49,974 nt of DNA from Candidatus Zixiibacteriota bacterium (GTDB lineage Bacteria; Zixibacteria; MSB-5A5; GN15; FEB-12), in the NCBI GenBank assembly GCA_034439475.1, contig JAWXAN010000071.1, positions 1 through 49,974 on the forward strand. The letters run 5' to 3'. The notes under the pieces are model-generated. The model searched no databases. It was not told the origin of the DNA and worked only from the letters and a program-made list of their open reading frames with translations. The position numbers were made by a program, and so were the translations under genes. This document shows positions 43,293 through 49,974 of the stretch, one piece after another (the first letter of the stretch is position 1; the number at the start of each line of letters is the position of its first letter).

Positions 43293-45029
43293 ATGGCAGA
43301 TAAAAGAACAAAGGAAAGCAAATCGGTGTCCGTTTCTCTTGCCGCACTGGATGCCATAAAAACTCTCTTTACTAAGGGCACGGACAAACAGAAGTTAGAG
43401 TTGCTGAAACGGCTTAGGGCTTCAACTATTACCGACCCTGAAGAAATTCAGCATTACCATGACTTGCTCTGCTTCCTCAGGGTCTACGCTGGTAATTCAA
43501 CTCTTTTAAAAGAAAGTGAGAAGCAACTCAAGCATTTCGGTGCGCGCGTAGAGCTGTATCAAGCGGCAACCCGCGACCGCAAGGCGAAAAAGCTTGTCGA
43601 TTCGGGGATTGAGGGCACAACAGTCGAAGGTCTGTTCAGCTATGAGTTGACACGTTTTCTGTGCCGTCGATATGGAGAAGCGTTGACAATAGACTGGAAA
43701 CGGTATGACAAGGAAGGGGCTGACCCATTGGTGACTGTGCTACCTCAGTTAGTAGCTTGGCCGGAACTCGACACATTCGACAATGACAAGGAGCTTGATA
43801 CGCGAAAGTGGCTTCAATCAGCGCAAGGCAAGACGAGCCAGAATGAGCTGGGTGCGCTTCTTCTATTATTTGAAAATTCCAAGCTGAGCCGTGAGATGCA
43901 ACGCTATTTGTTTGACCAGCTTGATTTGGGAATCCTATGGACATTGACCAATTCTCCCGCTTCGCGAACATTGAAACGCGTTGCAGGGCCGGGGACGCAC
44001 TATCAGAAAGAGGGACTGAAGGGACGGTCTGCAGATTTACGAGCAGAACTTGATAAAGCGCCGACAGATCTCACATTGGTTTCAGCCAAAGTCGGTCAGC
44101 AATATGTTGACGACATCAAAGAGGCGCTTGGTGTTCGAATCCGGGAGCTCTTTTCATTGACCGGCGCGAATCCCAACGAAGTCTACATAAACGATCCGGG
44201 GCGGGGTTTGCGAATTGTGATATATGGAAGCAATCCGGGTATTCGCCTGCCCCTCGAAAGCAACTTTGGGGCAATGCTCATTCGCAATAATATTCCCATC
44301 GGTTACGGCGTGTGCGCAACGCTTTTTGATCGCGCAGAGATAGCTATCAATGTCTTTCCGGCATTCCGGAGTGGCGAATCGGCATTTATAATCGAGCAGT
44401 TTTTTCGGCTCTTTCATCATCATTTTGGCGCACAAACGCTTTTCGTGCGAAGCTATCAGATTGGCGACAATAACGATGAGGCGCTCGAATCAGGTTCTTT
44501 CTGGTTTTATTACAAACTTGGATTCCGATCAGTTCAGCCAAATGTTAGACTTTTGGCAGAGAAAGAATATAAGAGGATTATAGAAGGAAAAGGCTACCGT
44601 TCACCGATCCGAATGCTGAAGAGACTCGCTATCAGCGACATGTTTTTTTCGATCGATCCCCAGCAGATGTCATCGTACCAAGAACTTCTTGTGTCAAACC
44701 TCGGCAAAGCCGTCACTCGCCACATTTCAGAACATTACGAGGGGAATCGACAACGAATGATTTCTGAGTCCGTAAAAATACTCGCCCAACTGCTTGCTTT
44801 ACGAAATATATCGCGCTGGAGCGCAGATGAAAAAGTTGGGTTCGAACGAATTGCGCCGCTTATCTCTTCGATTCCAGAACTTGGCAACTGGAGTCCTGCA
44901 GATAAAAAGCTTCTGGCCAAAATTATTCGGGCCAAAGGCGGATTATCCGAAAGAGAGTTTGTGCTTCTCTGCAATCGACATGAACGGCTTAAATCATCCT
45001 TGACAAAATTAGCAGAAGCATCGGCATAA
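43293..45029 (+). CDS. Uncharacterised 578-residue protein with GNAT-like segment
   Basis: I do not recognise a named family. Residues 1-100 are charged and helical. Around 325-415 there is a segment that looks like part of an acetyltransferase (GNAT) fold: PIGYGVCATLFDRAEIAINV, then FRSGESAFIIEQFFRLF and SGSFWFYYKLGFRS, the last resembling the FYxKLGF strand-helix end of GNAT proteins. The remaining C-terminal 150 residues are helical. No signal peptide or membrane segment. It follows livF by 63 bases on the same strand and may be read through from the liv operon, but a functional link is not evident. Confidence 0.65.
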   Translation: MADKRTKESKSVSVSLAALDAIKTLFTKGTDKQKLELLKRLRASTITDPEEIQHYHDLLCFLRVYAGNSTLLKESEKQLKHFGARVELYQAATRDRKAKKLVDSGIEGTTVEGLFSYELTRFLCRRYGEALTIDWKRYDKEGADPLVTVLPQLVAWPELDTFDNDKELDTRKWLQSAQGKTSQNELGALLLLFENSKLSREMQRYLFDQLDLGILWTLTNSPASRTLKRVAGPGTHYQKEGLKGRSADLRAELDKAPTDLTLVSAKVGQQYVDDIKEALGVRIRELFSLTGANPNEVYINDPGRGLRIVIYGSNPGIRLPLESNFGAMLIRNNIPIGYGVCATLFDRAEIAINVFPAFRSGESAFIIEQFFRLFHHHFGAQTLFVRSYQIGDNNDEALESGSFWFYYKLGFRSVQPNVRLLAEKEYKRIIEGKGYRSPIRMLKRLAISDMFFSIDPQQMSSYQELLVSNLGKAVTRHISEHYEGNRQRMISESVKILAQLLALRNISRWSADEKVGFERIAPLISSIPELGNWSPADKKLLAKIIRAKGGLSEREFVLLCNRHERLKSSLTKLAEASA

Positions 45030-45117: not shown

Positions 45118-46377
45118 TTATTTGGAAGCGGATTTAGCGGCGAACGATTCGCCAAACTGAGTTGGATTGAGTTTGGCAAGCATCGCCCTGCACTCATCGG
45201 CCTTGCTGGGCAGATTGGCGCTCTCGTAAATCTGAACGGCATATTTGTACAGATGGGGTTCGTAGCTTCCGAAACGCAGTGCGCGGTCGGCATACTTAAC
45301 AGCCTCACCAATGTTGCCATTGACGAAAAGAGCACGAGCCATCAACATATCTGTTTCAATGTCGCCCCTGTCTGCGGCTTCGGCTTTTGCAAGCATCCAA
45401 GCTTCGTGCTTTCTGTCCGAAAACTTAAGCAAGTATTCTGCTAGAACTCGGCGGTGGCCGACATCGCCAGCAGCAATTTCACTGCTGAGAAGGGCATGGG
45501 CGCTATCTCGAAGCCGAGCGGCATGGACTTTGTCCCCCATTCTCTCGCTGATATCGGCGCGGCGAAAAATAAGGTCATGATGGATGATTTGCGACAAAGC
45601 TGAGTCCAAAAGAGGGGCCGCACTCTTATCATCCCCTTCAATTTCGTATGTCTCAGCTAAGTGTTCAAGGGCGATTGGATATCCGGGGAGAATTTCAAGC
45701 GATTTCAGGAAATGTGCGCGAGCTTGGGGTACCTCTCCTTTACGAAGATAGAGATCACCGTACATGACCGACGCCCACGCCGATGGCTCGGGATTTGATC
45801 CGACCGGAAGTTTGACGCATTTATTCCAGAGCGCGTCGGCTTCGTCCCATCGGCCATGAAGTAGGTGCACCTTTGCCAGACGGCTCCAGGCGGCCATGCC
45901 GGGTTTTTCTACCGCGAACTTTGCGTAGCTCTCTTCGGCTGTCATGTAATCGCCAAGTTCGTATGCAACGTCTCCCAAAACCGCGGTGATGGTAGGATTA
46001 ACAGCGGCTTCGCTGAGAACAGTCACGAGGACACCTTTGGCTTCCTTAAATTTATGCTGGGAGCTTAAAGTGGTTGCAAGACCAAAAACGGCATCGCTGT
46101 TATGCTCCGGCTGAATCTTGAGGGATTGCCGAAAGGCCCCTTCGGCGAGACGATAATCAGCAAGTGAACCAGTAAGGCGGGCTTTAGAATTATAAGCCGC
46201 CCCGAGTTCCTTGGCCATCATAAAGCTCTTCGGATCTGTCACAAGCTTGTGAGTAAAGAAAGATATCTCCAGATCGAGTCTGCCCACAGCCGCAGTATTG
46301 GATTCTGCGGCGTGGGTAGAGGTAAACAGGGCGGCGACGGCAAGCAGGTTCATAAAAATTCGTTGTGCTCTTTTCAT
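45118..46377 (-). CDS. Exported TPR-repeat protein of the DUF4331 operon
   Basis: About 419 residues from ATG 46377, which follows CCGGAGAATTAAA and opens a signal peptide (MKRAQRIFMNLLAVAALFTSTHAA). The frame is open upstream to 46515 but that part overlaps the preceding gene. The body is TPR-like helices: LAEGAFRQSLKIQPEHNSDAVFGL, GDYMTAEESYAKFAVEKPGMAAWSRLA, ARAHFLKSLEILPGYPIALEHLAE. Probably periplasmic. One base separates it from the DUF4331 C-half gene, so the two are tightly coupled and likely work together. Confidence 0.87.
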   Translation of the reverse strand: MKRAQRIFMNLLAVAALFTSTHAAESNTAAVGRLDLEISFFTHKLVTDPKSFMMAKELGAAYNSKARLTGSLADYRLAEGAFRQSLKIQPEHNSDAVFGLATTLSSQHKFKEAKGVLVTVLSEAAVNPTITAVLGDVAYELGDYMTAEESYAKFAVEKPGMAAWSRLAKVHLLHGRWDEADALWNKCVKLPVGSNPEPSAWASVMYGDLYLRKGEVPQARAHFLKSLEILPGYPIALEHLAETYEIEGDDKSAAPLLDSALSQIIHHDLIFRRADISERMGDKVHAARLRDSAHALLSSEIAAGDVGHRRVLAEYLLKFSDRKHEAWMLAKAEAADRGDIETDMLMARALFVNGNIGEAVKYADRALRFGSYEPHLYKYAVQIYESANLPSKADECRAMLAKLNPTQFGESFAAKSASK

Positions 46378-46378
46378 T

Positions 46379-46906
46379 TTAATTCTCCGGGGCGAGAAAC
46401 GGAAATGTTCCGAGGAAGGTGGCATCGTTGCTATTGATGGCATCGCCAACTCCGGCGCCGCCAAGGGCGTTGCCGCGATTAAGAACAAGACCCACTGCAG
46501 CATCGATGACATCATCGGTCAAGCGGCGACCATTGGGAAACTGAACCGGGTTTGCAAAATTAATTGTGACAACATCCGGAATCAGAGCGGTTGCCACTTG
46601 TGTTGGCGTCAGGCCGGGGGCGTCCTCGGCAGGAAAACCGGAAACAGCATTAACCGCGGCGCGGATATTAGTTATCGTTGTGGTGGCAACCGGACGAAAA
46701 TTAGCCTCATCATTGACCGGCGCTGCGACGTTGAAAGCGTCTTTCTGAACAGACGTCGGAATGAGAGCGGTATTTATAGCCGGGATGGCCATTCTGTCGG
46801 TTTGAACGTAAGTCACACCCGGATCCATGGTGGTGTTGTCGTTATCGCAACCGGGCAAACCCGCCATGGCTATGGTTGCTGTCAGTAAAATAATCTTCAA
46901 TTTCAT
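46379..46906 (-). CDS. DUF4331 C-terminal half as separate lipoprotein
   Basis: 175 residues with its own lipoprotein signal (MKLKIILLTATIAMAGLPGC, Cys20). The body matches the C-terminal part of DUF4331 proteins: YVQTDRMAIPAINTALIP near residue 32 and FPNGRRLTDDVIDAAVGLVL near 123, ending in FLGTFPFLAPEN. Normal DUF4331 proteins carry this together with the N-terminal half in one chain; here the two are separate genes, each with an export signal, so this is not a simple frameshift. Function of DUF4331 is unknown. 58 bases after the N-half gene. Confidence 0.8.
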   Translation of the reverse strand: MKLKIILLTATIAMAGLPGCDNDNTTMDPGVTYVQTDRMAIPAINTALIPTSVQKDAFNVAAPVNDEANFRPVATTTITNIRAAVNAVSGFPAEDAPGLTPTQVATALIPDVVTINFANPVQFPNGRRLTDDVIDAAVGLVLNRGNALGGAGVGDAINSNDATFLGTFPFLAPEN

Positions 46907-46964
46907 ATTTCTATACTTTCTTTCTTCATTATCGAATTCATGTTTTCGATACGGTGTTAATCAT

Positions 46965-47630
46965 TTAGTTGGTTTGCGGTTCGGTGATACTGGTCCATGC
47001 CCGTATTGTGCCGGTATTGGCGTTTGCCGCGCCTGTAAGAGCAACAATGGGGAGTTCAATAACGATCGAACCAACATTTCGTCCGGCAAAGAAGTCGACC
47101 GGCGAGCCTGCGCCCGAAGCGCGGTATCCGGCGGCGGGAATATACGGTGCGGCAACAAAGGCTTTGAAGCCATCGAGGTCAAAAAAGAATGGATCTTCGC
47201 GGGGGCCAACAAATATTTTTATGGGTCCAGATGTCGTAATTATCGGAGCAGAACCCGCAGGGGTTACCTGCCCGGTGATTGGCGTGGCGCCAAGTCCCGC
47301 GACGCTGAATGTCTGGGTTGTATTTCCCGTAAAAGTAACCGTAACTACGGCATCGGCCAACAAGTCGCCAGTGTTGTCGACATGGATATTGTAGCGGGCG
47401 GCTTGTGAGAAAAGCGGAACCGGCGCTGCGCCTGGAACATGCGATGATACATTCATCGCCACAACCAAATTATTGGCATTGGTCGGACTGCGGAAAGCAT
47501 AGACATCAGTCACGTCTGTCCGTACATCACGATTGGCCAGCGGTGAGTCGAAGTGATCGGCGGCGATAGCTATACCTGCGATAGCCATGAGTCCGGCGAC
47601 AGTGAGCGAGAGCGTTTTTCTGAGCTTCAT
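46965..47630 (-). CDS. DUF4331 N-terminal half, exported
   Basis: About 221 residues from ATG 47630 with a signal peptide (MKLRKTLSLTVAGLMAIAGIAIAA). It continues DHFDSPLANRDVRTDVTDVYAFRSP, the classical DUF4331 start, then ARYNIHVDNTGDLLADAVV and GPREDPFFFDLDGFKAF, and ends shortly after DFFAGRNVGSIVIELPI with a TGTIRAWTSITEPQTN end. The frame is open to 47699, but the signal peptide begins at 47630, after an AAAGGG site. First gene of a three-gene operon with the C-half lipoprotein and the TPR protein. It diverges from the sigma-54 activator gene. Confidence 0.82.
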   Translation of the reverse strand: MKLRKTLSLTVAGLMAIAGIAIAADHFDSPLANRDVRTDVTDVYAFRSPTNANNLVVAMNVSSHVPGAAPVPLFSQAARYNIHVDNTGDLLADAVVTVTFTGNTTQTFSVAGLGATPITGQVTPAGSAPIITTSGPIKIFVGPREDPFFFDLDGFKAFVAAPYIPAAGYRASGAGSPVDFFAGRNVGSIVIELPIVALTGAANANTGTIRAWTSITEPQTN

Positions 47631-47957: not shown

Positions 47958-49640
47958 GTGAGTGAAAGTGAGAAACAGCACCAAACCGATAAGTTAATCG
48001 ACGAATCTGGTCTAGCGAGAAAGTCTGCCGAAGCCGCGCTTCGTGACAGCCAGGAGCGCTATCGCGCCCTTGCGGAAAACTCCTCTGATATTATTATCCG
48101 TTTTGACAGACAGTACAGGCATGTGTATGTCAACAAAGCTGTAATTGAATTAGCTGGATTTCCTCCTGAATTTGCGATTGGAAAAACCCACGAAGAACTT
48201 GGCTATCCGACCGAAATCGCTCAGGCCATTGAATACAATATCCAGAAAGTCTTTGATTCCGGCCAACCGTTGCTCATTCAGGGAGAATTGCAGACACTCA
48301 AAGGTCTAAGATTTTTTGATGCGCGGCTTCTGCCGGAATTCTCTGCTGACGGAACGGTTGAATCTGTCCTCACGACTACTCGAGACATCACGCCGCTTCG
48401 CGATGCCCAGAAAGAGCTTGAGGAAGCAAACACATCCCTTGAGCAGCGAGTCACAGACCGCACGGCGAAACTTGTCGACATAAATGCCAAACTTGAACAT
48501 GAAGTCAAAATTCGAACTCAGGTCGAAGCAAATCTCTATGTCGCCAATAGGGAACTTGAATTGAGACTTCAGGAAATTAGCCGACTTCGAGAACAGCTGG
48601 AGTTTGAAAATGAATATCTTCGAGAAGAGGTCGAGGCCGAACATTCGTTTGGAGAGATGATCGGCACCAGTCAGGCTCTCAAACATGTGGTGGCGCAAAT
48701 CGAGATGGTAGCTCCGACCGAAGCCAGTGTGCTTATCCTTGGAGAATCGGGAACCGGAAAGGAAATGGTCGCGCGCGGGATTCACCAGCGAAGCGGCAGG
48801 AGCGGCCGTCCGATGGTTAAAGTGAATTGCGCAGCCGTTCCACGTGAACTGTTTGAAAGCGAGTTTTTTGGGCATGTCCGGGGGTCATTCACCGGAGCTG
48901 TTAAGGACAGAATCGGCCGTTTCCAACTTGCCCATGGCGGCACACTCTTTCTTGACGAACTGGCTGAGATCCCTTTGGAGTTGCAAAGCAAACTTCTTCG
49001 CGTTCTTCAGGAAGGACAATTCGAGAGGGTAGGCGAAGATGTCACACGGACTGTCGATGTTCGTATCATCGCCGCAACAAACCGAGATCTAAAAAAAGAG
49101 ACGCAGGAAGGTAGATTTCGACAAGACCTATTTTATCGGTTGTCGGTCTTTCCAATTGAAGTCCCCTCCTTGCGAGACAGGCAAGACGATATTCCCCTGC
49201 TTGCGGCGCATTTTATCGATAAAGTCTGCGGCAGGCTGAACCGGCCGAGTGTAAAGCTTTCAAAAAGGGTCGTTCATGATCTTCAAGGGTATGATTGGCC
49301 GGGCAACATTCGCGAACTTCAAAATGTCGTGGAGCGGGCCTGTATAGTTTCTCGGGACGGGGCGTTCCGCGCTGACCTCGGACAGGATGACTCCGATAGG
49401 AAGGCGCCAAGCAGGTTCAAACCCCCGCCAGCCCAAACCTTCAGCGCGCCAATCGAACATGAAAGCTTTGTTTCGCTTCAGGAACTGCGCGCACGGGAGC
49501 GTGAGAGTATTGAGGCGGCGTTAAAAAAGACCGATGGAAAACTCTATGGCAAAGGGGGAGCCGCGGAACTATTGGGAATCAATCCGACCACATTGGCATC
49601 GCGGTTAAAGAAGATGGGTATAGCTCGTGGTGGTCAATAA
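47958..49640 (+). CDS. PAS-domain sigma-54-dependent transcriptional activator (NtrC family)
   Basis: 560 residues, GTG start. PAS domain at about 30-150 ([28 protein letters not shown]), a coiled-coil linker (about 150-230), then the AAA+ domain: Walker A GESGTGKE, the sigma-54 contact loop GSFTGA (common form GAFTGA), Walker [13 protein letters not shown], sensor motifs ATNRDL and [20 protein letters not shown]. The C-terminal Fis-type helix-turn-helix is at about 520-555 ([22 protein letters not shown]). It senses a signal through PAS instead of a receiver domain. Divergent from the DUF4331 operon, a plausible target. No obvious ribosome site before the GTG. Confidence 0.93.
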
Positions 49641-49850: not shown

Positions 49851-49854
49851 TTAG

Positions 49855-49974
49855 CTGGGACTTGCGGAAAACCGTCGATTAAGTACATTGCGGTGATGAA
49901 AAATAGCAAACGCCAGAGTGCTGGGACTTGCGGAAAACCGCCGATTAAGTACATTGCGGTGATGAAAAATAGCA
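49855..49974. repeat. 66-bp tandem repeat at the window edge
   Basis: 54 bases starting CTGGGACTTGCGGAAAACCG at 49855-49908 recur at 49921-49974 with one mismatch, period 66, cut by the end of the window. The period is a multiple of three, and one minus-strand frame reads a 22-residue hydrophobic repeat (RLLFFITAMYLI.GFPQVP). More copies may lie beyond the window. Confidence 0.85.

Follow-up and report, generated by a model that had tools for sequence, protein, structure and literature searches.

A two-gene form of DUF4331 with a predicted lipoprotein half and a TPR neighbor recurs in unrelated bacterial phyla and may handle metal in the envelope

Introduction

A histidine in the third position of a free amino end (X-X-His) constitutes the ATCUN copper/nickel motif (PMC7701195), and ATCUN-like motifs are described for PcoB (PMC12509749). 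The portions of these two accounts available to us do not treat DUF4331. For one protein of the locus reported here, the predicted mature end, Ala-Asp-His, would match the ATCUN motif (NH2-X-X-His); its metal binding is putative.

DUF4331 (Pfam PF14224) is widespread in bacteria. Our searches found no literature naming DUF4331 or PF14224, and among the matches listed for "domain of unknown function" 4331 none was evidently on this family. Nothing on a DUF4331–TPR operon was found among the matches listed for ATCUN motifs and bacterial signal peptides, or in the portion of the literature returned for HupE, TPR, and nickel. The split form described below is repeated but, as far as literature searches tell, undescribed.

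We analyzed a stretch of 49,974 nucleotides (the window), in which DUF4331 is encoded by two genes, termed here N-half and C-half. Their nearest relatives are single-chain proteins with a TPR gene, L004 (WHTK01000034.1, a Dehalococcoidia MAG and the single match in a search of genome contigs) and L051 (another genome). The L004 chain is 48% identical to the window's N-half and 59% to its C-half, and L051 is as close (50% and 60%). Like the window, L004 carries the TPR gene next (29% identity); unlike the window, it encodes a single chain of 465 aa that has a hydrophobic anchor at its C terminus and lacks a lipoprotein signal, and it possesses divergent sigma and anti-sigma genes. Split loci from the phyla of genomes G546, G598, G716, G666, and G785 share the three genes, their order, and the cut with the window, whereas many of them (phylum of G666) adjoin a NicO gene and one (G785) adjoins HupE_UreJ_2. 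NicO and HupE_UreJ_2 adjoin DUF4331–TPR in many relatives; the genome of the window is without either.

The split DUF4331–TPR operon of the window

The N-half (46965..47630, minus strand, 221 aa) runs from ATG 47630 to the stop codon at 46965 and scores 100.8 bits against PF14224 (hmmscan, cut-off 27), corresponding to profile positions 2–242 of 421 in the genome profile search. The C-half (46379..46906, minus strand, 175 aa) runs from ATG 46906 to the stop codon at 46379, scores 57.6 bits against the same cut-off of 27, and corresponds to positions 246–419 of 421. Together, the two halves exceed the score cut-off and cover the full profile, which places them in PF14224. Instead of the usual single chain, which lies outside the Pfam definition, the window holds two genes in differing frames with a start-to-start distance of 724 bases. 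The gap of 58 bases between them (46907..46964) contains a purine-rich stretch (GAAGAAAGAAAG) and no clear Shine-Dalgarno sequence. A single base (46378) separates the C-half stop from the start codon (ATG 46377) of the TPR gene (45118..46377, minus strand), the last gene of the operon in the order N-half, C-half, TPR. This gene has a GGAG ribosome site; its 419-aa product has a signal-like N terminus and, with 67.4 bits against TPR_2 (cut-off 27), belongs to the TPR proteins. The initial annotation of this DNA had described two DUF4331 halves, cut where the conserved halves of the family meet and followed one base later by a TPR protein; the ORFs, hmmscan scores, and profile positions bear this out in full.

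A Sec signal is predicted for the N-half, with cleavage between MKLRKTLSLTVAGLMAIAGIAIA and ADHFDSP, and the product is predicted to be soluble and periplasmic. The –3/–1 rule fits cleavage between AIA and ADH, which gives Ala24-Asp25-His26 (47553..47561, minus strand) as the predicted mature amino end. The C-half carries a predicted lipoprotein signal, with cleavage between MKLKIILLTATIAMAGLPG and Cys. Its lipobox, Leu17-Pro-Gly-Cys20 (46847..46858, minus strand), has a proline at position –2, failed the strict pattern, and passed the relaxed one. The C-half is thus a predicted lipoprotein that is apparently fixed to the membrane, and both export signals of the initial annotation were recovered, the lipobox by the relaxed rule only. 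We define a split DUF4331–TPR operon as an N-half with a Sec-like signal, a C-half with a lipobox, and a TPR gene next on the strand; the window falls under this definition with the same reservation on its lipobox.

The G+C content of the three operon genes (0.52–0.54) is near that of five neighboring genes (0.47–0.51), which makes a foreign piece in the contig unlikely. A divergent gene for a sigma-54 activator with a PAS fold (47958..49640, plus strand) is tied to the operon by position only, and no convincing sigma-54 promoter (–24/–12) was found upstream of the N-half in the window.

Split loci in other phyla

Besides the window, 43 further split loci were found in four other phyla, and loci with N-half, lipoprotein C-half, and TPR gene occur in G546, G598, G716, G666, and G785 and their phyla. 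A unique invention of the window's genome is ruled out by these loci. We take it that split DUF4331 genes also exist in Bacteroidota. In the window's own phylum, DUF4331 was detected in 1 of 132 genomes, namely that of the window, so that the operon was probably either gained from outside or widely lost in the phylum. Carriers amount to 81 of 400 sampled genomes in the phylum of the Dehalococcoidia MAG, 72 of 268 in that of G785, 68 of 149 in that of G666, 2 of 10 in that of G546, and 1 of 5 in that of G716. The 38 regions fetched from the phylum of L004 (one being the L004 record again) are nearly all single-chain. The 40 loci each from the phyla of G785 and G666 were chosen because they looked split or short, and the counts below are therefore not frequencies.

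The first set comprised 88 sources, 87 loci chosen for DUF4331 matches and the window, and contained 44 split pairs (window included), 39 fused genes, and five cases that were neither (L044, L073, L100, L167, and L179). L050 was counted as fused; its frame is broken and it was left out of the tree. A held-out set from the phylum of G666, analyzed with unchanged profiles, lipobox, and cleavage rules and a new pattern for the motif histidine, yielded 39 split pairs in 38 of 40 loci (none in L238 and L250, two in L244). The DUF4331 genes at L044:4815-5992 and L050:5049-6042 are broken by frame shifts and, unlike true splits, lack another export signal.

The C-half lipobox was found by the strict pattern in 38 of 44 first-set pairs (the window is among the failures) and by the relaxed pattern in 41, with a doubtful-looking match in L171; all 39 held-out C-halves have one (relaxed). 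Of the 44 first-set split loci, 35 are followed by a TPR gene on the same strand and no more than 2.5 kb away; 25 of 39 held-out pairs also have one next, and 6 of the 14 held-out pairs without it had less than 1.5 kb of sequence left. No neighbor other than TPR is common to the 44 split loci of the first set. The N–C–TPR order, which the initial annotation had suggested looking for in relatives, thus recurs. So does the cut: it is shared by the 43 + 39 other split pairs and always falls around profile position 240–250 (242/246 in the window), in what the sequences show to be a short linker between two conserved halves. This recurrence, like the full profile coverage by the window's two halves, goes beyond chance. 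Among the 43 split loci compared, none exceeds 40% identity to the window's N-half or 39% to its C-half. Because the same arrangement is present in unrelated bacterial phyla, the two-part form is, as judged from these sequences, a real and repeated design and not an error. No relatives were found on viral contigs; plasmid matches comprised six records for P0001 and one for P0002, all below 60% identity.

The amino terminus of the N-half

Whether a member is exported or signal-less, the conserved histidine of the family is the third residue from the predicted mature amino end ([AS]-X-His). A signal-like stretch is present in 60 short-form rows; in 56 of them the –3/–1 rule is satisfied two residues before the motif histidine, compared with 2–29 rows at the other offsets from 0 to 12 and 32 rows at offset –4, past the motif. 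All 44 split N-halves show the same spacing, although only 41 have the histidine itself (L170, L176, and L178 carry Arg or Ser in this column); it is also seen in 34 of 34 held-out rows with the motif, versus 0–19 at other offsets. Methionine is removed before alanine or serine, and in all 22 short members that lack a signal (19 ATG, 3 GTG) the start codon lies where this removal would leave [Ala/Ser]-X-His; each has a Shine-Dalgarno-like word before the start. L071 has Gln in the histidine column and His one position earlier.

Of the usable long forms without a signal-like stretch, 18 of 20 begin Met-Ser-Ser-His. For long forms, the cleavage rule fits offset 2 in 34 of 35 rows but offset 0 in all 35, and the rule therefore does not single out a site there. 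The motif search in long forms gave no motif in L118, L139, and L140 and spurious matches in L120 and L132.

The free end of the N-half hints at a metal-binding role. A domain that merely begins at its own N terminus would show identical spacing, which counts against the metal reading. Residues kept in at least 86% of 83 aligned rows are (window numbering) Asp25, His26, Asp39, Asp42, Tyr80, Gly142, Asp146, Asp179, and Trp212 in the N-half and Asp37, Asn59, Asp111, and Asp135 in the C-half, where Gly126-Arg127 and Pro169 are fully invariant and Asp131 is kept at 81%. The presence of conserved acidic residues on both halves fits one shared site, which would be formed by the two together.

NicO neighbors and the link between motif histidine and TPR gene

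In the first set, a NicO gene (PF03824) lies near 7 of 14 fused loci with TPR and at 1 of 44 split loci (L098), and HupE_UreJ_2 (PF13795) lies beside another (L099). Of the 39 held-out pairs, 27 have a NicO gene no more than 3 kb away on their own strand. The predicted mature NicO protein starts with histidine, through cleavage between Ala and HPLGNF or HPMGNF, in 8 of 8 first-set chains and in 23 of 30 held-out matches, the rest being mostly cut or late-start ORFs. In G132 and G437, the nearest kin of the window, NicO pieces of the same type are located at contig ends, and the DUF4331–TPR contigs of these genomes stop shortly past the TPR gene; we infer that the pieces belong to one operon. 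Neither NicO nor HupE was found near the operon in any of the 40 G785-phylum loci, the HupE profile having been built from one sequence and having a short reach. The window's genome (G000, 98.72% complete) gave no match to NicO or HupE_UreJ_2, which sets its operon apart from the DUF4331–TPR–NicO/HupE type; this absence weakens the metal reading for the window.

The motif histidine is associated with a downstream TPR gene. Among 82 split pairs (L233 was dropped because its N-half is cut by the contig end), 59 of those with the histidine are followed by TPR and 16 are not, versus 0 and 7 for those lacking it (Fisher p = 6e-5, uncorrected for kinship). For pairs with 1.5 kb or more of room, the numbers are 59 versus 11 and 0 versus 4 (p = 0.001); two of the seven pairs without histidine and TPR have less than 600 bases of room. 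As kinship is uncorrected, we regard the association as a hint. The seven pairs (L170, L176, L178, L243, the second pair of L244, L248, and L249) may be degenerate or changed paralogues.

A model for the complex

Our preferred reading is a complex that handles metal in the envelope, though our confidence in the metal part is low. Specifically, we lean slightly toward a two-gene DUF4331 whose halves, one of them lipid-tethered, rejoin and take the TPR protein as a partner, and we are less sure of metal handling by the N terminus. The soluble N-half would reassemble with the lipid-anchored C-half at the membrane, where the C-half anchor would tether what the closest relatives make as one chain, and the TPR protein would serve as scaffold or docking partner. 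With less confidence, the free Ala-Asp-His end of the N-half, perhaps together with conserved acidic residues, may bind Ni(II), Cu(II), or Co(II). In the envelope, the complex would then handle a transition metal, often with NicO encoded next to it, and the window's genome would retain the complex without that transporter.

A considerable minority of our confidence goes to a purely structural role of the fixed amino terminus. The halves would be functional and might join, the first strand would pack at the chain end, and the complex would serve, for example, in envelope sensing or adhesion tied to sigma and anti-sigma factors, with no metal role. The sigma and anti-sigma genes that adjoin several relatives, the divergent sigma-54 activator in the window, and the missing transporter in the window's genome agree with this reading, whereas the start codon two residues before X-His in 22 of 22 signal-less members, the NicO linkage (27 of 39), and the presence of TPR in 0 of 7 pairs without histidine versus 59 of 75 with it (kinship uncorrected) speak against it.

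The metal-handling complex can also be taken further, to a tentative and rather doubtful proposal: DUF4331 as a whole might be an N-terminal metal-binding family with an ATCUN-type nickel/copper site. In cytosolic and exported members, start or cleavage would be set so that the mature chain begins with [Ala/Ser]-X-His. Several phyla would have the chain in two parts separated at an identical linker, a soluble half with the metal end and a lipid-anchored half, which would rejoin with the TPR scaffold, often beside a NicO protein whose predicted mature chain starts with histidine. With the locked X-X-His end and the NicO neighbors, a metal role for this uncharacterized family becomes a hypothesis that can be tested.

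Single-sequence searches against solved structures (E up to 1) gave no match, and profile searches gave only weak, chance-like ones. AlphaFold models built from few sequences were poor (mean pLDDT 42.0 for the L004 single chain and 57.6 for the N-half), and their fold matches were uninformative (best Foldseek E of 0.05; best VIA-align Z of 6.3, to antibody domains). With such models, the joining of the halves stays an inference.

Co-divergence and origin of the split

Distances of N-half and C-half correlate almost as strongly in split pairs (r = 0.861) as in fused chains (r = 0.897), the best of 1000 permutations reaching 0.258 and 0.388, respectively. Physical joining of the two halves is likely. 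That they instead work apart, as a free periplasmic N-half and a separate lipoprotein C-half that are partners no more, is improbable. The different export routes in the window and its relatives and the poor AlphaFold models would leave room for such a separation; against it stand the adjacency of the pairs in 44 and 39 cases (adjacency being part of the selection), their divergence as if fused, the constant cut position, and the fused loci L059 and L064 within a split clade.

The tree built from 83 rows, of which 44 are split and 39 fused, places the window with two fused rows, L074 (the L004 record) and L051 (support 100/99), away from two large split groups. The split label requires six changes on this tree, at least four of them forced by starred branches. 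A test with 81 rows, leaving out the long-branch rows L070 and L098, rejected the best tree that keeps all split rows together (AU p = 1e-10), with at least three changes forced. One origin of all split forms is thereby ruled out, which implies that fission or fusion occurred several times at the same cut; fusion occurs too, L059 and L064 being fused members of a split group. For the window, the change was either a fission in its own line or a fusion in that of L004 and L051. The functional fission proposed in the initial annotation is supported in part: the split is functional, with signals and gene order recurring across phyla and the halves co-diverging, and fission as the direction of change, binding between the halves, and a three-protein complex with TPR remain proposals. 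The initial annotation missed that the split is common in other phyla and arose through several changes, as well as the NicO link and the position-locked amino terminus. Repeated fission or fusion at one site combined with a lipid anchor makes for a natural split protein for study, and the split names the linker at which DUF4331 halves can be made apart.

Misassembly of the window's locus or its decay into a pseudogene, to which the differing frames and the uninterrupted genes of L004 and L051 might point, is ruled out for practical purposes: an error cannot supply the start codon and lipoprotein signal that the C-half has and the fused chain lacks, the conserved motifs are intact, the arrangement recurs elsewhere, and nothing suggests the error that the initial annotation had considered alongside uninterrupted relatives.

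Other observations

A 578-aa protein without Pfam match at E 0.001 is encoded convergently with the operon (window 43293-45029). A 55-base repeat occurs twice at positions 49854-49974, up to the very end of the window, with a spacing of 66 and 98% likeness between the copies. Twelve loci whose fused DUF4331 has neither a signal nor a TPR gene (L038, L039, L041, L045, L048, L049, L050, L053, L054, L055, L056, and L073; L073 a fragment only and L050 frame-broken) share a neighbor with a twin-arginine-like signal, which comprises 171 aa in L073:4407-4922.
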